Source: Micrococcales bacterium (lineage in GTDB: Bacteria > Actinomycetota > Actinomycetes > Actinomycetales > CAWJMD01). Taken from it: DNA of 63,086 nt. Shown piece after piece: positions 3,680-16,876 of the stretch (positions within the stretch are counted from its first letter, which is position 1; each line of letters starts with the position of its first letter). The notes under the pieces were generated by a model that ran no database searches, had not been told where the DNA came from, and worked only from the letters and a program-made list of their open reading frames with translations. The stretch lies in assembly GCA_002748415.1 (NCBI GenBank), contig PDSI01000131.1, forward strand, positions 1 through 63,086. The letters are read 5' to 3'. A program made the position numbers and the translations under genes.

Positions 3680-4201
3680 ATGAAAATGAACGACGATCTG
3701 CTGGCCGCTTTCAACGACCAGATCACTCTGGAGTTCACTGCTTCCCAGGTCTATCGCCAGTTGGCCATCGAGATGGAAACCCGGGACCTTCCGGGGATGG
3801 CATCCTGGTTGCGCGCCCAGGCGGACGAAGAGATCGTGCACGCGAACAAGTTCATCGACCACGTCACGGACCGGGGCGGGCATCCGCAGATCGGTGCTAT
3901 TCCGGCACCGCAGTTGGAGATCACCAAGGCTGCCGACGTGTTCGAAGCTGCGTTGGAGTACGAGCGCAACAACTCCGCAGCCATCCGGGAGCTGTACCGG
4001 CACGCGGACAAGGTCGACGACCTCGACTCCCGCCCGCTGCTCAACTGGTTCATCGACGAACAGGTCGAGGAAGAGGCCACCGTCGGTGAAATCCTCGGGT
4101 GGTTGAAGTTGATCGGCGACGACGGAACGGGACTGCTGAAACTGGACACCGAGTTGGGCACCCGCACGTCCGGCGGGACTGCGGACGACAACGGTCATTA
4201 G
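3680..4201 (+). CDS. Ferritin (non-haem, BfrB-like)
   Basis: 173-residue four-helix iron-storage protein. Ferroxidase-type ligands are visible: ITLEFTASQVYRQLA in helix A, ADEEIVHANKFIDHV in helix B, EAALEYERNN in helix C and WFIDEQVEEEATV in helix D. It would oxidise Fe2+ and store it in a 24-mer in the cytoplasm. No haem-ligand Met of bacterioferritin is obvious, so non-haem ferritin is preferred. The ATG follows a TACCCT box by 6 nt, suggesting leaderless translation. Monocistronic; no Fe-regulator box was recognised upstream. Confidence 0.92.
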   Translation: MKMNDDLLAAFNDQITLEFTASQVYRQLAIEMETRDLPGMASWLRAQADEEIVHANKFIDHVTDRGGHPQIGAIPAPQLEITKAADVFEAALEYERNNSAAIRELYRHADKVDDLDSRPLLNWFIDEQVEEEATVGEILGWLKLIGDDGTGLLKLDTELGTRTSGGTADDNGH

Positions 4202-4883
4202 GACGCGTCCCTGAACCAGCCGTGACGAGGCAGCGCCAGGCAGCCATGCAGACGTGGCCGGGGTCCCAGTGCGCAACTGGGGGACGATGGTCGCCGACGA
4301 TGCCCACCGCGTGCCAAGCTTGCGCGTCGTCCGCAACGACTGGTCCGCCGCGGGACGATGCACCCGTGACAGCCTCGGTCTGCTCTTGCTAGTAGTGCTG
4401 GGCCTGTCCGGACACGGATGTGGCGGCAACCCGGCTGGGTACCGCCGGTACGGGCTGCCCGGGGTCGAGGGTCTGCCTACGGACCGGGTTGGGGAGTCGG
4501 CGGGCGGGGAATATGAGGTGGCCCAGATCGGAATCCGTCACCGCACGCATGCCGCAGCACGAGACATCGCCGCGGCAGTGGTGCAGGCGGGACACGCCAT
4601 GCGCGCAGCGAAACAGTCTACGCACCGCAGTATCGTCATCTTCGACGACTCGATGCGGGCCACCTGGAGCGTTCGTCGCCCCGTGGCCTGGGCGTGGCCG
4701 GCGCAGCGGTCATCGTGCGCGGCATTCACCGCGATCCGCCCCCGCCCAAAACCGACGATGAGGGCTGATTCGCCACGACCAAGGCTAAAGCCCGCGGCCG
4801 GCGCCGCCGATGCAACGTCGTTCGGCAGACGAGGTGACATGTCCAAGGCTGCGCTGCTGCCGGCGGACAGGAGGAAGGTAGCG
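4202..4883. other. 682-nt region without a recognised gene
   Basis: The frame of the following PAS gene is open back to 4254, but this stretch resembles no family I know and ribosome-site evidence favours a start at 4884. A coding-like stretch at about 4590-4768 switches frame near 4650 and ends at TGA 4766-4768; it may be a degraded gene. Nothing else is evident. Confidence 0.4.
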
Positions 4884-5429
4884 GTGGTGGCGGCGGTCGC
4901 AGTGAGACCAACCGGGCGCGAGCGCACCTTCGGCGCGGAAGAGATCATCGTCTCCAAGACTGATCCCAAGGGCCGCATCACCTATGCCAACGACGTGTTC
5001 GTCCGGGTCTCCAAGTACTCGCTCAATGAACTCATCGGAAGCCCCCACAGCCTGATCCGGCATCCGAAGATGCCGCGCGGGATCTTTCACCTGCTGTGGC
5101 AGACGATCCTGTCCAAGCAGGAGATCTTCGCCTATGTCAACAACCTCGCCGCGGACGGCGCGAACTACTGGGTGCTCGCCCACGTGACCCCCACGTACGG
5201 CAATTCCGGGCAGATCATCAGCTTTCACTCCAATCGCCGGCTGCCCGCCCCCGGTGCGGTCCGGACGATCTCGACGGTGTACGAGGAGATGCTGGCCTGG
5301 GAGCAGAACCAGCAGGGGCGTCCGGCGCAGATCGCCGAGCAGTCGGCACAGCGGTTGACTCATCGATTGGCCGAGCAGTCGATGACCTACGAGGAGTACG
5401 TATGGTCGCTGATCAGCGCTGGAGCGTAG
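4884..5429 (+). CDS. PAS-domain protein, Aer-like
   Basis: About 181 residues dominated by one PAS domain (about residues 20-115): [32 protein letters not shown] and an aromatic [11 protein letters not shown] strand. The pattern RHPKMP is typical of PAS domains of Aer-type energy-taxis receptors, which bind FAD. The C-terminus is helical and has no membrane span or signalling domain. GTG 4884 is chosen because AGGAGG lies 9 nt before it; ATG 4839 is an alternative. Eight nucleotides separate it from a soluble chemoreceptor gene, so the two products probably act as sensor and signalling halves. Confidence 0.82.
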
Positions 5430-5437
5430 GCAGGACG

Positions 5438-6328
5438 ATGGCACGTACCCGCTCCACCGCCACATCGACGGGTTCTGAGCAGCCCGTTGCGGCCTCGTTC
5501 TTCGATCAGCTCGAAGAAGTCCTGGAGCGGGCCGCGGCCGGAGATCTGCAGGTACGCATGGTCTCGGTGGACGGCGACCGTGAGCGCCAGGTCGCCCACA
5601 AGCTGAATCACATGATGGACACGATGGACGCGTTCGTGCGCGAGTCGGGAGCGACGCTGATTGCGGCGGCGCAGGGTCGGTACCACCGGCGTTTTCTGCG
5701 TCAAGGTATGCCTGGCGACCTTCGTTCCGGCGCGAAGATGATCGATCAGGCCCGGGCCGAAATACAGGCGGCCAATTCGCAGATCTACGAGCAGGCGAGG
5801 ACCAGGGATCAGATCGCGAACACCGCACTGGAAATATCGACACAGCTGGCAGGTGCGGCGGTGGAACTCGGGGCATCGGCGAACAGCCTGGCAGGTACCG
5901 CCGAGGAAGCCGTGTCCCACACCGACACCGCGCTGCTGACCGTGGAAACGCTGGAAGCCGCCAGTACGCAGATCCAAGCTGCGGTAACCATGATCGCCAA
6001 CGTGGCCAAGCAGACCCGGATGCTGTCCTTGAACGCGACCATCGAGGCCGCGCGGGCCGGAGAGGCCGGACGGGGATTCAGTGTGGTCGCCGACGAAGTC
6101 CGGTCGCTGGCCGATGCCTCGGCGGACTCCTCCTCCGAAATCGGCGCTCAGGTAGTGGCCGCCCAGACCGCCGCAGCAGAGGCCGCCGCGATCATCACCA
6201 CCATCTCCCAGGCCATCAAGGAAATCGACTCCCAGATATCGGGGATCGCCGATGCGGCCGGCGGCGAAGGTGGCTTGGCCTCCTTGGCCGAAATCCTGCG
6301 CAATGAGATAGGCCGGTTCGCCAGCTAG
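5438..6328 (+). CDS. Soluble methyl-accepting chemotaxis protein
   Basis: 296 residues with no membrane segment. Residues about 30-110 look like a HAMP-like linker; from about 125 to the end lies the MA signalling domain with its hairpin tip [18 protein letters not shown] at about 197-214 and [12 protein letters not shown] following. The N-helical half is long enough to form the coiled coil that binds CheW and CheA. No ligand-binding domain is present, so the preceding PAS protein is the probable input. No che or flagellar genes occur in this window. The ATG has weak SD support (CAGGACG). Confidence 0.88.
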
Positions 6329-6542: not shown

Positions 6543-7622
6543 TCAGCCAGGAAGCTCTGGTGCCGGCGGCCCAGTGGGCTGGGCGTACTGGATCGGGCCC
6601 AGGCGACCGCGGCCCCTGTGCTTGGCCCGGTACAACGAAGCGTCTGCCGCGGAATACAACTCGGCCAGTGTCCGGCCGCGTTGCGCATACCCGACGCCGA
6701 CGCTGACACCGACAGCGATCAGGATCGAACTATCTCCCCGGCTGACGGTGAACGGTTGATCTGCCACTTCCGCCATGAGCTGTTCGGCCCGCTGCTGCGC
6801 GGCGAACTGCGTACAGCCAGGCAGGAACAGCGCCAACTCGTCGCCACCCATCCGGCAGGCCAGGTCAGTGGACCGTGTTTGCGACTGGACCCGGGCCGAG
6901 ACATGCTGCAGGACGGCATCGCCCACCGGGTGACCGTATGAGTCGTTGATCTGCTTGAACCAGTCCACGTCCAGCAGGATCAGTGCCGCATTCCGCTGCG
7001 CCACAGCGCGAGTAGCTTCCGTGTCGAAAACACTTCGAGTCGCCAGCCCGGTCAGCGCGTCAACGGATGCCTGGCGACGCAGCTGCCCTTCGGCCTCTTG
7101 CTGAGCTTCCCGGGCCCGACTGACCAGAAACGCCACGGACAGCAGAATGACCGGCACGTAGAGCGAGTTATGCAGACCGGAGGCCAGCGGCTGTAGACGC
7201 AGCGCGACGAAACTGGTGGCCACCGAGGCGTAGCCCGCGCCGATCAGCGCCTCGTTCTTGGGCCGGTGGTAGGCGAGGTACAGCACAGGCAGAATCTGGA
7301 ACATCGTCGAGCCCGCGGTGGTGTCCTCGGCCACCAGATGGATCACCGACAGCACGGTGGTTGCCGTCATCGCCTCCAGCAGCCCGGCTGGGCGGATCCT
7401 GCGCCGCAGCCGGAAAACGACGAGCGCAACCGCAACGGCAGCCACGGCGACGCTCATCAGCGACAGCCGATAGGTCAGAACGTTCGCGTGCCGGCCAGGC
7501 ACGATCCACGCCATGGCCTGATCGATGAACAGGGCAGTGCCGGATGCCCCCAGCAGTCCGCTGAAGGTTGCGATGGCGTGTGATGTCTCACCCGTGGGCT
7601 CTGCCCCGCCACGGCGCTTCAT
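6543..7622 (-). CDS. Membrane diguanylate cyclase (GGDEF)
   Basis: 359 residues from the ATG at 7622 (AGGGG upstream). Five or six hydrophobic segments fill residues about 12-170; a short coiled linker (REAQQEAEGQLRRQ) leads into a GGDEF domain starting at SVDALTGLATR. The active loop reads GGDEL instead of GGDEF/GGEEF, at about 259-263, and the inhibitory RxxD site (RSTD) lies five residues before it. The domain converts two GTP to c-di-GMP if active; the last position of the motif is tolerant to change. The frame extends upstream to 7718 but without support. Confidence 0.87.
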   Translation of the reverse strand: MKRRGGAEPTGETSHAIATFSGLLGASGTALFIDQAMAWIVPGRHANVLTYRLSLMSVAVAAVAVALVVFRLRRRIRPAGLLEAMTATTVLSVIHLVAEDTTAGSTMFQILPVLYLAYHRPKNEALIGAGYASVATSFVALRLQPLASGLHNSLYVPVILLSVAFLVSRAREAQQEAEGQLRRQASVDALTGLATRSVFDTEATRAVAQRNAALILLDVDWFKQINDSYGHPVGDAVLQHVSARVQSQTRSTDLACRMGGDELALFLPGCTQFAAQQRAEQLMAEVADQPFTVSRGDSSILIAVGVSVGVGYAQRGRTLAELYSAADASLYRAKHRGRGRLGPIQYAQPTGPPAPELPG

Positions 7623-7743
7623 GCCCCTATTCTCAGGGGCTACGGCGCGAGAGGGAAACAGGTGGACAAGGCGCCACTCATCAACTACGCAAGGTGACCG
7701 GGAGCCGGTTTTCGTCAACTATCCGTCACTGAGAGGAGGTGCC

Positions 7744-8736
7744 GTGTCAAAGGTGCTGGTCACCGGTGCGTCCGGGTTCATCGCCAAACACATCACGCGG
7801 GAACTGCTTGAACGCGGTTATCAGGTACGCGCGTCGGTACGCTCGGACCGGCGCAGGGCCGAAGTCGAGGCGCTGTTTCCCGGCGCCGGAATCGAGTTCG
7901 TCACTCTTGACCTGAACAAGGACGGCGGATGGCCCGAAGCGCTGACGGGTGTTGATGCCCTGATCCACACGGCGTCGCCGCTTCCGGGCCGCCGGACCAA
8001 GAACCCGCAAGACGTGATCCGCCCTGCGGTGGACGGCACCATGCGAGCCTTCGAGGCGGCGAGCGCGGCTGGAGTGGACAGGATCGTGCTCACCTCCAGC
8101 TGTGCCGCGATCTACCGGGACAGCAGCAAGCCGGCCGACACTATTTCCACCCGGCACAACTGGACCGATCCTCGCGACAGGTCTGCCACCGCGTACGAGG
8201 TATCGAAAACCCTGGCCGAAAGAGCGGCCTGGGCCTACGTGGCCGGTCATCCAGACATCAGGCTGACCGTCATCAACCCGGGTGGGGTGTTCGGCCCGCC
8301 GATGGACGTGAACTACAACGCCGTTCTGCGTTACCTCCAGCACACTCTTGCCGGGCATCTACCGGTGCTTCCGCCGGTACGGATACCGATCGTCGATGTC
8401 CGGGACGTGGCCAGGATGCACGTCCTCCCGCTGACCGATGACAGCACGGTGGGAAAGAGATTTCCGGCCAACGCGGGTCCTCTGTCCATGGTCGAACTCG
8501 CCCAAGTGCTGAAGTCCGAATACCCGGGCCGGCGCATCTCGACCCGCCGGGTATCTCCCCGGCTGATCACCACAATGGCGCGTTTCATCCCGGCAATGGC
8601 CCGGTTCGCAGACGGCATCGAACGCAACCTCGACGTGGACGGTTCGGACGCCCCACGAGAGATGGGGTTTCAGTACATACCGGCTACGGAGGCGGTCCGG
8701 ACGTCAGCGGATTTCTTGGTGCGCCACGAGCGTTGA
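7744..8736 (+). CDS. NAD(P)-dependent epimerase/reductase (extended SDR, dihydroflavonol reductase-like)
   Basis: 330 residues. Rossmann motif GASGFIAKHI at residues 8-17, DLNKDGGW acidic strand, LTSSCAAIY with the catalytic Ser region, and AYEVSKTLAE containing the Tyr-x3-Lys pair. NPGGVFGP follows, as in the atypical SDRs that reduce carbonyls such as dihydroflavonol or cinnamoyl substrates; the true substrate is not deducible. The GTG start follows GAGAGGAGGT by 3-4 nt. Divergent from the diguanylate cyclase gene and followed by a strong hairpin. Confidence 0.85.
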   Translation: MSKVLVTGASGFIAKHITRELLERGYQVRASVRSDRRRAEVEALFPGAGIEFVTLDLNKDGGWPEALTGVDALIHTASPLPGRRTKNPQDVIRPAVDGTMRAFEAASAAGVDRIVLTSSCAAIYRDSSKPADTISTRHNWTDPRDRSATAYEVSKTLAERAAWAYVAGHPDIRLTVINPGGVFGPPMDVNYNAVLRYLQHTLAGHLPVLPPVRIPIVDVRDVARMHVLPLTDDSTVGKRFPANAGPLSMVELAQVLKSEYPGRRISTRRVSPRLITTMARFIPAMARFADGIERNLDVDGSDAPREMGFQYIPATEAVRTSADFLVRHER

Positions 8737-8760
8737 TCGTTTTCGCCCCTCGGGCCGGCA

Positions 8761-8795
8761 CCGGCTCGCCCGCCCAGACCGGGCGGGTGAGCCGG
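8761..8795. terminator. GC-rich hairpin between convergent genes
   Basis: CCGGCTCGCCCGCCC pairs with GGGCGGGTGAGCCGG across a 5-nt loop, 15 bp with one G-T pair. It lies between the SDR gene (plus) and the SufD-like gene (minus), where a bidirectional terminator is expected. Confidence 0.75.
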
Positions 8796-8863
8796 CGCCT
8801 CAGGTCTCGACGGCCCGCCGGTGCGAGGGTCATGACCGGACGGTGCAGGGGTCGTGACCGGGT

Positions 8864-9982
8864 TCAGAGTGCGCCGCTGCGGGCCTTCGCAACCATCTCC
8901 TGCACCTCGTCGGCAACCTGCTCGGGCAGCCAGTCACGGTCCAACTGCAGGAAGCCGCGCACGATGAGGTCCCGCGCCGTGTCCTCCTGCAGGCCGGTGG
9001 CCATGAGGTACGCGAGTTTGTCCTCGGTGATCATGCCGATCGAGGCCTCGTGCGAGAGCTGCGCCTGCGGGCTGTGTGCCACAAGTCCGGGAGAGGATTC
9101 GATGAAGCCCTCGATGCCGAGCTTGAGGCCGTCGCAACCCAGGTAGCCGTCCGAGCGGTCTGCGAAACCCACGAGGGTTGAGTGGTTGCGGATCACGCCG
9201 CCGCCGGTCACCATGCGGGCGATGCTCTCGGCGTGAGCGTCCTGGCCGCACAGCTCGATGCGGCTCTCGCAGAAGCGTTCGGTGCCGGCCGAGGCGAACA
9301 TGATGGACTCGTCCGTCGAGACGGCTCGGTCGTGCAGGATCGTCCGGCTGCGGGTTTCGTGCCGGGCGACGGGTGAGAGCATGACCGCAGTGTCCCCGTG
9401 TACGGCCCCGGCGCCCACGTCTGTGGCGCCGAAGCTTGCGACTTCCATGTTCTCGCCCCAGTGCTCGATCGAAACAGAGCGGTAGACCGCGCGCGGGCGC
9501 AGGTAGGTCTCGGAGACCGACAGATGCATGCCGCGACGGACCGGCTCCGCGACGGAGGAACCGGAAACGGCTTCCATCTCCGCACCCTCTTCGACGACGG
9601 TCAGGCAGTGCACGTACTGGTGCGCCTGCGGGGTCTCCAGCATGGTGAAGGTTTGCACGGGGGCCCGCACCCGGGCACCGGCCTTGACGTGCACGAAGTG
9701 CCCGATGGGTGACAGCTGCAGTTCCACGGCGCGGGCGAGTCGCACGTCCGATGTGGGGTCCACGAGGCCGAAGAGGAGGTCCTGCACCCACTCGTAGCGG
9801 AGCAGGGCCTCTGCGATCGGCAGCACTTCGATCTGTGGGTCCTCGACATCGATGTGGGCGACGTCACGGTCCACGACCACGGCGGTTGCGGCTCGCTGCT
9901 GCTCGGGCCGGTAACCCACCCGGGCCAGGTTCTCCTGTTCGGTGGGGCTGAGGGGCACGTCGGGGTGGCTGACGCTGGTCAT
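8864..9982 (-). CDS. SufB/SufD-family Fe-S scaffold protein (SmsB-like?)
   Basis: 372 residues of the SufBD beta-helix family: a polar N-terminus, a central strand-rich core, then GCDGLKLG and SHEASIGMITEDKLAYLMAT near the end, followed by ARDLIVRGFL. SufB/SufD with SufC form the complex that builds Fe-S clusters in the cytoplasm. The Glu and His of SHEASIG are retained and a Cys lies about 30 residues before it. Only one SufB/D protein and one SufC are present, overlapping by 4 nt; sufB, sufS, sufU and sufT are not in the window. This resembles the two-gene minimal SMS arrangement known from archaea. Generic SufD is the alternative. Confidence 0.8.
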   Translation of the reverse strand: MTSVSHPDVPLSPTEQENLARVGYRPEQQRAATAVVVDRDVAHIDVEDPQIEVLPIAEALLRYEWVQDLLFGLVDPTSDVRLARAVELQLSPIGHFVHVKAGARVRAPVQTFTMLETPQAHQYVHCLTVVEEGAEMEAVSGSSVAEPVRRGMHLSVSETYLRPRAVYRSVSIEHWGENMEVASFGATDVGAGAVHGDTAVMLSPVARHETRSRTILHDRAVSTDESIMFASAGTERFCESRIELCGQDAHAESIARMVTGGGVIRNHSTLVGFADRSDGYLGCDGLKLGIEGFIESSPGLVAHSPQAQLSHEASIGMITEDKLAYLMATGLQEDTARDLIVRGFLQLDRDWLPEQVADEVQEMVAKARSGAL

Positions 9983-10728
9983 GCGTGGATCTCCTTCCGC
10001 GCGGCCGGGTCCGCGGCCACCTGGTACCCGTCCCGGGCGATCGTGGCGAACAAATCGCGGGCGTTACCCGAGGCGGCGATGCGGCCGTCGAGCATGACGT
10101 GACCGTGGGTCGCTTCGATGTAGTCGAGGATGAAGCCGGTGTGAGTAATGATGAGTGCGCTACGCTGCCGACCGTTCGCGTCAGGCGTACGGATGAGCTC
10201 GTCGATGGCCTGGCCGACAGCCTGGATATGCTCCAGGTCGACACCCGACTCGGGCTCGTCGAACAGGCAGATGCGTGGTAGCTGCAGAGCCAGCTTGAGG
10301 ACTTCCCACCGCTTGACTTCGCCGCCGGAGAAGCTCTTGTTGAGGATCCGGCCGGTGAACGCGGCCAGGTCGAGCGAATCCGCGAGTTCGTCCAGCCGGC
10401 CCGTGGCCTGCATTGCCTCCACCAGCGCAGCGACCGTCACACCCTCGAAGCGGGGCGGTCGCTGGAATGCCATGCCAAGGCCCCGCCTGGCCCGTTCATC
10501 GATCGATAAATCATGGATGGGACGCCCGTCGAGTTCGATCGTCCCCTGTGCCTCGTATGGCGGAAGGCCCATGATCCCGGCGAGCAGCGAGGATTTGCCG
10601 GATCCATTCGGGCCGAAGAGGACGTGTACCTCGCCTTCTTTGATATCGAGCCGGACATCGGTGCAGATGCGCGTACCGCCCGCCTCGACGTTGACACCGC
10701 GCAGCCGGAGCGCGGATGAGCCGGTCAT
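9979..10728 (-). CDS. SufC-type ATPase (SmsC-like)
   Basis: 249-residue ABC ATPase. Walker A GPNGSGKSS at about 39-47, Q-loop in GMAFQRPP, signature SFSGGEVKRWEVLK, Walker B ICLFDEPESGVD and the H-loop in IITHTGF. The signature with KRWE, and DEPESGVD after Walker B, fit SufC/SmsC more than transporter ATPases, which lack such a close SufD partner. It powers conformational change in the scaffold. The stop overlaps the next start (ATGA), so the two are translationally coupled. A GAGGAGG ribosome site precedes the ATG. Confidence 0.87.
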   Translation of the reverse strand: MTGSSALRLRGVNVEAGGTRICTDVRLDIKEGEVHVLFGPNGSGKSSLLAGIMGLPPYEAQGTIELDGRPIHDLSIDERARRGLGMAFQRPPRFEGVTVAALVEAMQATGRLDELADSLDLAAFTGRILNKSFSGGEVKRWEVLKLALQLPRICLFDEPESGVDLEHIQAVGQAIDELIRTPDANGRQRSALIITHTGFILDYIEATHGHVMLDGRIAASGNARDLFATIARDGYQVAADPAARKEIHA

Positions 10729-10997
10729 GGTGCCTCCTCACGCGGGACCTCCATTGACCCCGCATTGCCATGGTAAGCCTTGGCTAACCTTGAGGGCTCT
10801 GTGAGTGCGGACACATCGTGCGGAAAGCCGTTGTGCCCCGGGCAAGGCGGCGCGACTCCTCCTTGCGCGTCACCGGATGCGGCTGGCCGTCGCCCCGCCT
10901 CCGGGGCGTAGGGTGCGGGCAAGACTCGTCAACGATAGGAACAGACTCGTCAGCGACAGAAACGGACTCCCCAGCAATGGAAGCGGACTCCTCAGCG

Positions 10998-11876
10998 ATG
11001 AACGAAGACCCGTCCACGACGGACGGGGCCACCGTGACCGGCGCCGGCCCCAGCCGGCAGGCACCCGATCCGCTGGCTGCCATGGGTACGCCCCAATCGC
11101 TGGTACTGGGACTCGACGGCGGCTGCCTGACCGTGACCATCAACCGGCCCACGAAGCTGAACGCGCTGAATGCCGATGTCCTCACCGAACTCGCCGAAAC
11201 CATCGCTTCCGTGGCCACGGTCCCCCGGTCGCAGATCGCCGGTGTCGTCCTGACCGGCGCCGGCGAAAAGGCTTTCATCGCGGGCGCCGACATCGCCCAG
11301 ATGTCGAGGATGACACCTGTGCAGGCCAGAGCGTTTGCGGCCTTGGGCCAGGCGGTACCGGACGCCTGCGAAGCGTTGGACCGGCCGGTCGTCGCCGCGG
11401 TCAACGGCTATGCGCTCGGCGGTGGGTGTGAACTCGCGCTCGGCTGCGACATGATCTACGCCTGCCCGCCGGCCGCGTTCGCCCAGCCCGAAGTCTCCCT
11501 CGGCATCGTCCCAGCGTTCGGCGGCTGCACTCGCCTGGTCGCTGCGGTGGGGCCCGGGCGGGCCCGCGAGATGGTCTACACCGGGCGAACGATCGACGCC
11601 GCGCAAGCCCATGCATGGGGTTTGGTGACAGCCTTGTTCGAGGACCGCGAGACGATGCTTGCAGCCGCCCGCTCGACCATCGACCTGATCGGGACTCGCG
11701 CTGCCGGCGCCGTCGCTGCCGCGAAGTCCGCGATCGCCAGCACCGTGCGAGAAGGGCCACTGGCTGGTCTCGCTGCGGAACGCACGCTGTTCGCAGCTGC
11801 TTTCAGCACCGATGACATGCGCGAGGGAACCTCCGCGTTCGTCGAGAAGCGACCGCCGGTGTTCACCGACCGATGA
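10998..11876 (+). CDS. Enoyl-CoA hydratase/isomerase family protein
   Basis: Crotonase-fold enzyme acting on acyl-CoA. TINRPTKLNALNADVL opens the domain; GAGEKAFIAGADIAQM forms the CoA-binding region and oxyanion strand; NGYALGGGCELALGCD carries the second oxyanion element and the first catalytic Glu; PEVSLGIVPAFGG carries the second catalytic Glu (enoyl-CoA hydratase type). The conserved part begins near 11082. The start is uncertain: 10998 is chosen because third-position GC becomes coding-like from there, while upstream in-frame codons form a degenerate Asp-Ser repeat. No ribosome site fits any candidate. It is divergent from sufC. Confidence 0.85.
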   Translation: MNEDPSTTDGATVTGAGPSRQAPDPLAAMGTPQSLVLGLDGGCLTVTINRPTKLNALNADVLTELAETIASVATVPRSQIAGVVLTGAGEKAFIAGADIAQMSRMTPVQARAFAALGQAVPDACEALDRPVVAAVNGYALGGGCELALGCDMIYACPPAAFAQPEVSLGIVPAFGGCTRLVAAVGPGRAREMVYTGRTIDAAQAHAWGLVTALFEDRETMLAAARSTIDLIGTRAAGAVAAAKSAIASTVREGPLAGLAAERTLFAAAFSTDDMREGTSAFVEKRPPVFTDR

Positions 11877-11902
11877 CCCGCGTCGGCGGCAGCGCGGAAG
11901 GG

Positions 11903-12259
11903 TCAGCGCCGGAACCCCTCGCCCAACTCGAAGAACCGTGGGTCCAGCTTCTTCAACGGGTCGCGCAACCGTTCCAAGTCGGATTGCGGTGCGTGCACCT
12001 CCAGCCGGCGCAGATCAGCCATGCTCAGTACCTGCTCGAGCAGGTCACCGACGTTCCTCAAATGCGCCAGCACCGCAGCAGCGTCGATGTAGTCTTCCCG
12101 GCAGTGCACCTCATTCCCGTGATGGCTAAAAGCGTAGTGAAGACAACCCGGCTCCTCACTGGTGCGGGCCACGAACGAAGGTTCGAGAGCCTGGAACTCG
12201 GCGAGCTTGCCTTCGTGGACAGCGAAGTACGGCACCAAGGTGCACACGGCGTGGGTCAT
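11903..12259 (-). CDS. Small monooxygenase-like (ABM-domain) protein
   Basis: 118 residues. The pattern CTLVPYFAVHEGKLAEFQ, then TSEEPGCLHYAF and HCREDYIDAAAVLAHL, matches the antibiotic-biosynthesis monooxygenase/YgiN ferredoxin-like fold, a dimeric alpha-beta barrel often called quinol monooxygenase. No cofactor site is expected in this fold. The ATG at 12259 follows GGAGCAACCG, which supports it over the longer frame to 12307. Its convergent neighbour is the enoyl-CoA hydratase gene; a physiological substrate cannot be inferred. Confidence 0.72.
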   Translation of the reverse strand: MTHAVCTLVPYFAVHEGKLAEFQALEPSFVARTSEEPGCLHYAFSHHGNEVHCREDYIDAAAVLAHLRNVGDLLEQVLSMADLRRLEVHAPQSDLERLRDPLKKLDPRFFELGEGFRR

Positions 12260-12484
12260 CGGTTGCTCCGTTCTACCCGTCGGGTCATGGCATGACATCG
12301 GTACCACGGTGACCCAGGGCTGGCAATAGCCGTGAGGCCACGCGGACCGCTGCGGCAGTCTGTCCCTCCTGGGCGACGCAGTGCCGTCCAGGACAGCCGA
12401 TCCCGGCGGTAGTACGCAGGTGTGCCGGTTGAGCTCCGGGGGGGCGAGCGGGTCGCGCCCGGGTGCGGCCTGCCGGGACGGGTG

Positions 12485-12763
12485 TCAGTCCAGGCCCAGG
12501 GAGAACGCTGCCTCCAGGTCGTGGCGTGAGTACGCGCGAAAGGCCAGATGCGTCTCGGTGCGCTGGATGCCTTCCGTTCGGTTCAGGGTGCCCGCGACGA
12601 CTTCGGCCACCTCATCGTGGTCGCGCACTCTGACGATCGCGATGAGGTCGAAACCGCCTGTCACCGAGTACACCTCGCTCACACCGTTCAAGGCAGCAAT
12701 CTCTTGAGCCACCTGGGGTATGCGGGCGGGGTCGGCAGTGATGAACACGAAGGCGGTGATCAC
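12485..12763 (-). CDS. Lrp/AsnC-type stand-alone ligand-binding (RAM) domain
   Basis: 92 residues covering only the beta-alpha-beta-beta-alpha-beta effector domain of the Lrp family: ITAFVFITADPARIPQVA, VSEVYSVTGGFDLIAIVRV and TEGIQRTETHLAF. The DNA-binding helix-turn-helix is absent, as in stand-alone RAM proteins that bind amino acids or modulate full-length partners. GTG 12763 is chosen because TATCGT lies 6 nt before it, a leaderless layout; the longer frame to 12892 has no support. It lies just downstream of the large membrane protein gene on the same strand. Confidence 0.85.
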   Translation of the reverse strand: MITAFVFITADPARIPQVAQEIAALNGVSEVYSVTGGFDLIAIVRVRDHDEVAEVVAGTLNRTEGIQRTETHLAFRAYSRHDLEAAFSLGLD

Positions 12764-14554: not shown

Positions 14555-16876
14555 TCACCCATCGCCACCGCCACGGTCCTCACCGCCACGGTCGCCACCG
14601 CCACGGTCGCCACCGCCACGGTCGCCACCGCCACGGTCCTCACCGCCACGGTCCTCACCGCCACGGTCCTCACCGCCACGGTCCTCACCGCCACGGTCCT
14701 CACCGCCACGGTCGCCACCGCCACGGTCGCCACCGCCACGGTCCTCACCGCCACGGTCCTCACCCCAACGGTCCTCGTCGTCACCCTCGCCCTCGCTGTC
14801 ATCACCGTCGCTGGATGCATCGGTCGGCGACTCGGTGGCGGTCGACGCGGAGGTGGGCGGGCTGCTCGATGAGGAGGTCGGTTTGGGCGGCGGACGGGTT
14901 CCGTGGAAGGTGCCGCCGTACACGGGAGGTTCGAACTGCTCATATTCCGCTCCGTCGAGCGCCCCGCGCATGAACGCGGTCCAGATCCGGGTGGGGAACG
15001 ACCCACCAGTCACCGAGTACACCCCTCCGAAGCCGGGGATCGGGGCCGGATTATCGCCCTCGTCGGTGTTGTACATCGACACCGCCGCCACCAGCTGCGG
15101 GGTGTAACCGACGAACCAGGCGGACTGTGAGGAATTTGACGTGCCGGTCTTCCCGGCTGCCTGGCGGCCGAGCCCGCGCGCGTAGGAACCCGATCCGCCG
15201 TTGACCACCTGCCGCAGCGCATAGTTCAGGTCGTCCATCGAGTCGGTGCTGAAAACGCGGGTGCCTGCGGTGTTCCCGGTATAGAGCACCCGCTCTCCAC
15301 CCTTACCGTCCGGCGCCAGTACCTTGTCCACGAAGTGCGGCTCGTGTCGCTCCCCGCGGGCAGCAAAGGTGGAGTAGGCGGCGGCCATGTCGATGTTGTG
15401 CGGACTCGCCGTGCCGAGCACGTTGCCCAGATAGTCGTTCAACCCTGCGGCGTCTTCCGGGATACCCGCGCTGATCGCCGCCTGCATCGACTTTTCCGGC
15501 CCGACATCCTCGTTCAACGCCACATACACGGTGTTGACAGACTTCGCGGTTGCCCTCAGCAGATCCAGATACCCGTAGGTGGAATCACCGTAGTTGCGGA
15601 CCGGTTTGAGCCGGCCCCCGTCGGTGTAGCCCTTGAAGGTCCGGTTGTTGGCCCCGCTGAACGTGCTGCGCAACGACACACCGTCCTCCAGCGCCGCGGC
15701 GAGGGTGAACGGTTTGAAGGTCGAACCGGCCTGGGCGACGTCCTGGGTGGCCGCGTTGCGTTGCCGCTTGAGATAGTCCGGCCCGCCGTACATCGCCCGC
15801 ACCGCGCCCGTGGTGGGGTCAATGGCGGTCAGCGCGGCGTGCAAACCTTCCGGGCGGTTGTAGCTGGGGAAGGCGTCGGTGTTGTTCATCGAATCGACGG
15901 CCGCCTTCTGCATATTCGCGTCGAAGGTCGAGATGATACGGAACCCACCACCGTCGATGAGTTTCTCGTCCAGCCCCGCCGCCAACAGCTCGTCGCGAAC
16001 GGCCTGCATCAGGTAGCCGTTCGGCCCGGCAAGGTCGTTGGTGTTCTCCCGCACCGGCGCCTTGGGAAACTCCAGGGTGGCGCGTTCGGCCCGATCCAGG
16101 TATCCCTCGGCAACCATCTGGTCCAGCACCGAGTTCCACCTTTCGGTAGCCCGCTGCGGATCGTTGGCCGGGTCCCACCGGATCGGGGAAGGCAGGATGC
16201 CGATCAGCATGGCCGACTGAGAAACGTTCAAGTCTTTGGCCTCGACGCCCCAATAAGTCTGCGCCGCCGCCTCCAGCCCGTACGCACCACGCCCGAAGAA
16301 CACCGTGTTCAGGTAGTTCTGCATGATCTCGTCCTTGGACAGCTGCCGATCGATCTTCATCGCGATCAGCGCTTCCTTGGCCTTGCGCGTGTAGGTGCGC
16401 GAATCGTCCAGATAGTAGTTCTTCACGTACTGCTGGGTGATCGTGGACCCGCCCTGCTGAGAATTGCCCCGCGCGTTGTTCCAGAACGCGCGCACAATTC
16501 CGGTCGCAGACACGCCACGGTTCTCGTAGAAGCTCTGGTCCTCGGACGCGATCAGCGCCTGCTGGGTGTGCTGCGGCATCTGCGACAGTGGGATCGAGGT
16601 GCGGTTGGCCACCGCGAACGACCCGATCTTCGCCCGGCCGTCGTTGTAATAGATGGTCGACTTCTGGGCCGCCATCACCTCGTTCGGATCGGGAATACCG
16701 ATGGTCTGGTAGGCCACGGCAAAGGCCCCCGCCAGAATGAGACCCAGCGCGAAGATCGTGCCGAGGACGCCTTTCCACCCCGGCACGAGGCGCCGCCATC
16801 CAGTCTTGGGCCGTCGCTGACGCGGACCCAGCCCGGCTGGGCGGCGCGGCGCGCTCCCCCCGTCATACTTACCCAC
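14555..16876 (-). CDS. ponA: Bifunctional class A penicillin-binding protein (PonA1-like)
   Basis: 773 residues. One N-terminal membrane anchor (about 35-57); the glycosyltransferase domain shows SEDQSFYENRGVS (catalytic Glu), GGSTITQQYVKNYY and FFGRGAYGLEAAAQ; the transpeptidase domain shows STFKPF (catalytic Ser), SVNT and KTGTS. It polymerises lipid II and cross-links peptidoglycan outside the membrane. The tail after about residue 645 is Ser/Thr/Pro-rich, then acidic, then 14 five-residue units of the type D-R-G-G-E/G, an unusual low-complexity end. The GTG start has GAGGA about 10 nt upstream. The gene following it is Rv0051-like. Confidence 0.95.
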   Translation of the reverse strand: MGKYDGGSAPRRPAGLGPRQRRPKTGWRRLVPGWKGVLGTIFALGLILAGAFAVAYQTIGIPDPNEVMAAQKSTIYYNDGRAKIGSFAVANRTSIPLSQMPQHTQQALIASEDQSFYENRGVSATGIVRAFWNNARGNSQQGGSTITQQYVKNYYLDDSRTYTRKAKEALIAMKIDRQLSKDEIMQNYLNTVFFGRGAYGLEAAAQTYWGVEAKDLNVSQSAMLIGILPSPIRWDPANDPQRATERWNSVLDQMVAEGYLDRAERATLEFPKAPVRENTNDLAGPNGYLMQAVRDELLAAGLDEKLIDGGGFRIISTFDANMQKAAVDSMNNTDAFPSYNRPEGLHAALTAIDPTTGAVRAMYGGPDYLKRQRNAATQDVAQAGSTFKPFTLAAALEDGVSLRSTFSGANNRTFKGYTDGGRLKPVRNYGDSTYGYLDLLRATAKSVNTVYVALNEDVGPEKSMQAAISAGIPEDAAGLNDYLGNVLGTASPHNIDMAAAYSTFAARGERHEPHFVDKVLAPDGKGGERVLYTGNTAGTRVFSTDSMDDLNYALRQVVNGGSGSYARGLGRQAAGKTGTSNSSQSAWFVGYTPQLVAAVSMYNTDEGDNPAPIPGFGGVYSVTGGSFPTRIWTAFMRGALDGAEYEQFEPPVYGGTFHGTRPPPKPTSSSSSPPTSASTATESPTDASSDGDDSEGEGDDEDRWGEDRGGEDRGGGDRGGGDRGGEDRGGEDRGGEDRGGEDRGGEDRGGGDRGGGDRGGGDRGGEDRGGGDG
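14564..14773. repeat. 15-bp tandem repeat encoding DRGGE/DRGGG units
   Basis: Fourteen tandem 15-bp units (consensus on the plus strand CACCGCCACGGTCCT or ...GTCGC), the most upstream one degenerate (DRWGE). They encode the C-terminal tail of the penicillin-binding protein. Two alternating versions of the unit occur in blocks, suggesting expansion by slippage or unequal exchange; length polymorphism between strains is likely. Confidence 0.95.

Follow-up and report, generated by a model that had tools for sequence, protein, structure and literature searches.

An SMS-like gene pair in addition to a complete suf operon in a Micrococcales bacterium and its putative scaffold-borne cluster site

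Described SUF and SMS systems and the gene pair

Iron-sulfur (Fe-S) cluster assemblers of the SUF-like minimal system (SMS) kind, built from an ATPase (SmsC) and a scaffold protein (SmsB), are thought to be ancestral. In this study, we analyzed an SMS-like gene pair at positions 8864 to 10728 (minus strand) of contig PDSI01000131.1 of a Micrococcales bacterium (assembly GCA_002748415.1); the whole stretch of 63,086 nucleotides is referred to as the window. The pair is an extra SMS-like variant that most likely functions as SMS does, but with the scaffold carrying the cluster site.

The SMS of Methanocaldococcus jannaschii carries one [4Fe-4S] cluster on SmsC via C218, C239, and C242 and complements Escherichia coli only anaerobically and with sulfide. 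The C-terminal regions of archaeal SmsC proteins contain 0 to 5 Cys, with a CXXC in 292 of 415, and these regions were predicted to be generally cluster-binding and SMS to be a system of anaerobes (PMC12192291). The same SmsC Cys triad was described for Methanothermococcus thermolithotrophicus, where SufB Cys and His mutations left binding unimpaired (PMC12584684). In the SUF system of E. coli, SufB Cys254 is the sulfur entry and SufB Gln285 has a role in sulfur production and channelling, while SufB Cys405 and SufD His360 are the ligands of a site that is hidden in the SufB-SufD interface until ATP-driven SufC dimerization exposes it (PMC6006206). For SmsB2C2 of Thermococcus kodakarensis, C357, H385, and E386 were proposed as ligands on SmsB and likened to SufB Cys405, SufD His360, and SufB Glu434, respectively (PMC12442378). 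In our literature search, which did not include the first description of SMS (Garcia et al. 2022), no paper was recognized as treating the pair and its relatives. The pair and its relatives are called the lineage here, and the ordinary SmsCB that other members of the phylum carry are called classical.

Two open reading frames (ORFs) on the minus strand form the pair, an smsC-like ABC ATPase gene (10728-9979, 249 amino acids) and an smsB-like gene for a β-helix scaffold of the SufB/D family (9982-8864, 372 amino acids). They have the ATGA at 9979-9982 in common, as a reading of the sequence alone (the sequence-only reading) had described for a SufC/SufD-like pair. The motifs quoted there were found again in SmsB, namely SHEASIG at residue 310, YLMAT at 325, and ARDLIVRGFL at 336. 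A 4-nt overlap also occurs at two other loci, L005 and L006, which share with the window the DNA upstream of the pair from 10729 to 10813 and to 10785, respectively. Altogether, the same gene pair was found at nine other loci and is therefore not a chance arrangement. At one of them, L065 (G923:C1, 8888-10002), smsB is broken over two overlapping reading frames, owing either to gene decay or to an error in sequencing.

SmsC and SmsB alone, with SufD and desulfurase absent from the locus, define an SMS locus, and this is what the window contains. The absence of sufB, sufS, sufU, and sufT from the vicinity, also stated in the sequence-only reading, was borne out: tblastn searches of the window (E 1e-4) with the SufB, SufD, SufC, SufS, SufU, and SufT-like proteins of the same genome detected only the pair and no second SUFBD gene, and a Pfam search of seven flanking ORFs between 1998 and 12892 detected no Suf gene. 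The genome (2.84 Mb, 248 contigs, 91.9% complete, 5.02% contamination as given) encodes three SUFBD proteins, one in the window and two adjacent on contig C73, where sufB, sufD, sufC, sufS, sufU, and a SufT/PaaD-like ORF (84.7 bits to the PaaD model, under its cut-off) stand in one row. An ORF reading like a helix-turn-helix regulator precedes this row and had no NCBIfam match at 1e-20. Thus, the suggested extra minimal Fe-S line does stand beside a full SUF set, and with the operon complete on C73 the pair is not a displaced member of it. For four pieces of the window, 15 kb each, the tetranucleotide correlation with the stretch of C73 (0.903-0.932) is close to that among the pieces (0.910-0.934). 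These values do not support a contaminant contig, a possibility left by the contamination value, and the base composition of the window gives no sign of a foreign origin.

Conserved residues and the putative cluster site

The SmsB alignment comprised 128 lineage rows, some of them near-identical (the 120 matches listed of 203, the window, and seven loci), 150 classical rows (30 loci plus the 120 listed of 7703 matches, a selection thus biased towards the query profile), 17 SufB rows, and 10 SufD rows. Thinning of the lineage to less than 90% identity and at least 340 amino acids left 115 rows. The equivalents of E. coli SufB Cys405, His433, and Glu434 are kept in 127, 127, and 126 of the 128 lineage rows, respectively, the row without the Cys405 equivalent being the partial sequence P0003, and all three in 115/115 of the thinned set. 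This answers a check proposed in the sequence-only reading, namely which Cys and Glu of the site are retained. In the window protein they correspond to C283 (codon 9134-9136, minus strand like those below) and to H311 and E312 (9047-9052), H311 lying in the column of SufD His360. C283 is the only conserved one of four cysteines in this protein.

The SMS likeness proposed earlier holds for the two-component pair, but not for the cysteines. The Cys254 column is Cys in 150/150 classical SmsB and 17/17 SufB rows, while in the thinned lineage set it is Ser or Ala in 108/115 and Cys in 2/115 (P0030 and P0031); the window carries S142 (9557-9559). Another Cys of classical SmsB (150/150) is missing from 128/128 lineage rows, with F112 (9647-9649) in the window. 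The two upstream Cys of M. thermolithotrophicus SmsB, Cys145 and Cys175, both lack an equivalent in the window protein. At the columns of SufB Cys254, Gln285, and Lys303 the window has Ser142, Glu173, and Gly185; Trp287 is kept in 128/128 lineage rows. Compared with SufBC2D of E. coli and of the genome itself, the pair has the ligand residues in common but one scaffold protein instead of two, which lacks equivalents of Cys254, Arg226, Asn228, Gln285, and Lys303.

On the ATPase side, the C-terminal region of SmsC (9982-10095), where methanogen SMS carries its cluster-binding Cys triad (PMC12192291, PMC12584684), is free of Cys. This applies to 10/10 ATPases linked to lineage SmsB, the window included, and to 112 of the 120 SmsC database matches listed, whose linkage to smsB is unchecked, the other eight having one Cys. 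In contrast, classical linked SmsC proteins have three (8) or four (22) C-terminal Cys in 30/30 loci. The best-filled Cys column of the SmsC alignment reaches at most 47/130 rows, and 37/130 rows are entirely without Cys. Walker A Lys and Walker B Glu are present in 130/130 rows and the switch His in 129/130; in the window they are K45, E158, and H196. As in the genome's own SufC, the C-terminus of the window SmsC is both short and without Cys. Since neither of the two SMS cysteine features tested is present, the pair was not filed as a standard SMS, and without the cysteines that carry the cluster in the relatives studied, the cluster is likely built or held elsewhere.

Because SmsC is without a conserved Cys and the scaffold keeps exactly the ligands of the SufB/SufD interface, we infer a symmetric C283/H311/E312 site. 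By analogy, the pair may form an SmsB2C2 Fe-S scaffold with the cluster between the SmsB subunits instead of on SmsC, to which we assign a probability of about one half. In such a homodimer, each C283 would lie near H311 of the partner, as SufB Cys405 lies near SufD His360 in SufBC2D, giving a two-fold symmetric pocket of 2 Cys and 2 His (plus 2 Glu). ATP binding and SmsC dimerization would open the SmsB-SmsB interface. With the Cys254 equivalent gone, the SufB relay would presumably not be used for sulfur entry, and candidate routes are sulfide, SufU/SufE acting directly on C283, or a ready-made cluster. The T. kodakarensis SmsB2C2 has a like proposed ligand set, its SmsB being SufB-like with 430-450 amino acids, a comparison made by description only. 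A point against the SmsB-dimer site is that methanogen SmsB conserves these ligands too and was found not to need them. If the site is real, an SmsB homodimer would take the place of the SufB-SufD interface, and the simplest possible scaffold would reveal the position of the SUF cluster, long a matter of dispute. The single conserved Cys in a two-protein scaffold makes the location accessible to a clean mutational answer.

The same residues were weighed for two other functions. A cluster carrier or repair ATPase, which does not assemble clusters de novo but passes on those received ready-made from SUF or in a damaged state, would make the sulfur-entry Cys dispensable. Its equivalent is missing in 113/115 rows, yet the ligand set is invariant, and the column of Gln285, to which sulfur production and channelling were ascribed (PMC6006206), is Glu in 126/128 lineage rows. 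However, the SMS of M. jannaschii is functional in E. coli when sulfide is present (PMC12192291), so that a missing persulfide relay is no bar to assembly, and we regard the carrier or repair role as a possible but rather doubtful explanation. A reuse of the ATPase-scaffold fold for a purpose other than Fe-S clusters would agree with the loss of two SMS cysteine sites and with the lack of a linked client or Fe-S gene in the loci read. The strictly kept Cys-His-Glu triad, which equals the cluster ligand set proposed for SUF (PMC6006206), makes this reuse very improbable.

Affiliation of the scaffold and the ATPase

The window SmsB contains one Pfam domain, SUFBD_core PF01458 (77-79 bits, cut-off 27). 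Its scores stay under the cut-offs of the NCBIfam SmsB model NF052511 (101 bits, cut-off 650), of SufB TIGR01980 (97 bits, cut-off 346.4), and of SufD TIGR01981 (63.7 bits, cut-off 222); the classical SmsB of locus L069 likewise stays under that of NF052511 with 174.6 bits. Profile and fold both place the scaffold closer to SmsB of the 4dn7 type than to either SufB or SufD, the nearest solved structure being 4dn7 of Methanosarcina mazei, although SmsB of M. jannaschii (MJ0034, partner of MJ0035 in SmsC2B2) is more distant from it than SufD is. The window ATPase scored 168 bits against SufC TIGR01978 (cut-off 212.8; the genome's own SufC 338) and is 40-50% identical to classical SmsC versus 37% to the genome's own SufC.

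SmsB trees were calculated as a quick one with 66 rows and a careful one with 58 rows, which left out MJ0034 and E. coli SufB, both long, as well as six other rows. The lineage is a single clade in both (support 100 and 100/100) and in the careful tree joins classical SmsB with 100/99, in 997 of 1000 bootstrap trees, and SufD in 3 of 1000. In the approximately unbiased (AU) test, the lineage constrained with SufB was rejected (p-AU 5e-5), while the constraint with SufD was not (p-AU 0.125). In the tree of the partner ATPases, the 15 lineage rows form a single clade (100/100) separate from the 12 SufC rows (100/100), and classical SmsC does not form one group in the free tree. Lineage SmsB is distant from classical SmsB; gene pair, family, and SmsB fold are shared.

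Ordinary SufD was set aside: the Cys405 and Glu434 columns are Asn and Ala in 10/10 SufD rows, compared to Cys283 and Glu312 in the window, and profile and fold are nearest to SmsB. The AU test, however, is compatible with kinship to SufD. A placement inside actinobacterial SufD or an adjacent sufB partner gene, both named earlier as findings that would speak against an SMS-like system, was not seen. The pair could also provide spare subunits to the SUF scaffold of the host, with the SmsB-like protein pairing with SufB instead of SufD. This is improbable, since the protein has the two residues that SufD lacks, an own ATPase nearer to SmsC than to SufC accompanies it in all 10 loci examined, and sufD is present in 4/4 hosts tested. 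Database proteins labelled 'SufD family' include a separate SMS-like lineage.

Hosts, neighborhoods and further observations

Among the kin of the genome the lineage is rare, with 1/296 in a class sample (the window's own genome), 2/349 in family f5 (including the copy split over two frames), and 1/251 in family f11. A sample of 396 genomes of the phylum gave 75 matches at 1e-40, comprising the window's genome, 49 genomes with classical SmsB (200-263 bits), and 25 at 140-153 bits. One of the 49, G624, has two SmsB-like genes. In G622, the one examined of the 25, SufB and SufD are adjoined by SufS and SufU. Names among the SmsB matches listed include sphingomonads, Rhodobacterales, Castellaniella, Arcobacter, Pseudenhygromyxa, Pseudoclavibacter, and Mycolicibacterium; those for SmsC, with linkage to smsB unchecked, add Hyphomicrobium, Gordonia, and Corynebacterium.

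For a comparison of hosts, 16 genomes were tested (four with the lineage, 11 of the 49 classical ones, and G622). All four lineage hosts have three SUFBD proteins, with SufB and SufD present, a heme-copper oxidase, and a SufS-like protein of 50-100% identity. The classical-SMS genomes, on the other hand, have a single SUFBD protein in 11/11, a COX1/heme-copper oxidase in 1/11, and more distant best desulfurase-like matches per genome (32-35%). In G622, two SUFBD proteins and no oxidase were detected. The sole oxidase match among the 11 (G384, C7:58462-59715) belongs to a genome without SufB/SufD, which may represent a respiring bacterium that relies on SMS only. In G878 (L079) and G923 (L080), sufB, sufD, and sufC stand together and a SufS-like gene (50% identical) lies elsewhere in the genome; no sufS or sufU was found beside sufBDC in the stretches examined, SufU elsewhere in these genomes not having been searched.

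The resident SufB, SufD, and SufS-like desulfurase in 4/4 hosts would also suit a carrier or repair ATPase. The coexistence with SufB and SufD in heme-copper-oxidase genomes differs from methanogen SMS, and with its Cys-free SmsC the lineage looks like a natural counter-example to an SmsC-bound cluster and an anaerobe-only SMS, although Cys-free SmsC proteins are already contained in the published count of 0 to 5 Cys (PMC12192291). A tentative wider reading is that of a mobile, oxygen-age SMS lineage in which the cluster shifted from SmsC to the symmetric SmsB-dimer site of 2 Cys and 2 His (plus 2 Glu), perhaps as a Rieske-like [2Fe-2S] cluster, with no Cys254 persulfide relay.

Six plasmid copies of the pair were found; of the four plasmid records examined, two are typed as conjugative and two as non-mobilizable. 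The DNA match between the window and L005 or L006 is confined to the pair plus 57-85 bp upstream of it, both contigs ending less than 2 kb downstream, and the pair seemingly travels without fixed company. Prophage or viral cargo was rejected, with no match in viral contigs. Two Rhodovulum plasmids (L010, L011) carry smsCB near NnrS, a Crp/Fnr regulator, a Fur-family regulator, and a manganese/iron ABC transporter, and the Sphingomonas panacis plasmid copy has cytochrome bd (cydABD) and universal stress genes as neighbors. Together with iron-uptake functions, these neighbors hint at low oxygen, nitric oxide (NO), or iron shortage. NnrS with the Crp/Fnr regulator, cytochrome bd, and the universal stress genes would agree with a carrier or repair role, but no neighbor is conserved across the loci read. 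We guess that respiring bacteria use the pair as an auxiliary scaffold or carrier when stressed by iron, NO, or low oxygen.

By names read from translations, with no family search, the neighbors are leuA-like and era-like in L005, gltX-like and antiporter-like in G878, of the glycosyltransferase/exopolysaccharide type in G923, and short-chain dehydrogenase-like and TetR-like in G1059. The gene after smsB in L006 (7321-8541) reads as a cystathionine/methionine gamma-lyase and is not beside the pair in other loci read; such lyases are able to release sulfide.

Upstream of the pair, a DtxR-type iron box with 13/19 matches is reached by 0.002 of shuffles. The fraction is 0.006 for L065, 0.024 for L006, and at least 0.23 for seven other loci, and none of the three genome sites with up to three mismatches lies at the pair, so we make no claim of control by such a box. 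The best FNR box upstream in four plasmid loci (two sites, L009 only) has 2 mismatches of 10 and was judged not significant. No RNA families or tRNAs were found in the window. Flanking repeats were rejected as remnants of a mobile element, since those within 7500-12500 are short and imperfect; a 22-bp direct repeat in two copies (8819-8861) stands just behind the smsB stop.

Further features of the window were noted. A 21-bp repeat (3.7 copies, 10923-10999) lies at the N-terminal end of an enoyl-CoA hydratase-like ORF divergent from smsC. A ferritin-like gene (3680-4201) lies about 4.7 kb from the pair but not beside it in other loci read. At 4254-6328, a PAS-like protein is directly followed by a soluble methyl-accepting-type protein, resembling by translation a two-gene split Aer receptor. 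A 15-bp tandem repeat (14 copies, 14566-14776) encodes the Gly/Glu/Asp/Arg-rich tail of an ORF at 14555-16876, which by its translation is penicillin-binding-protein-like.
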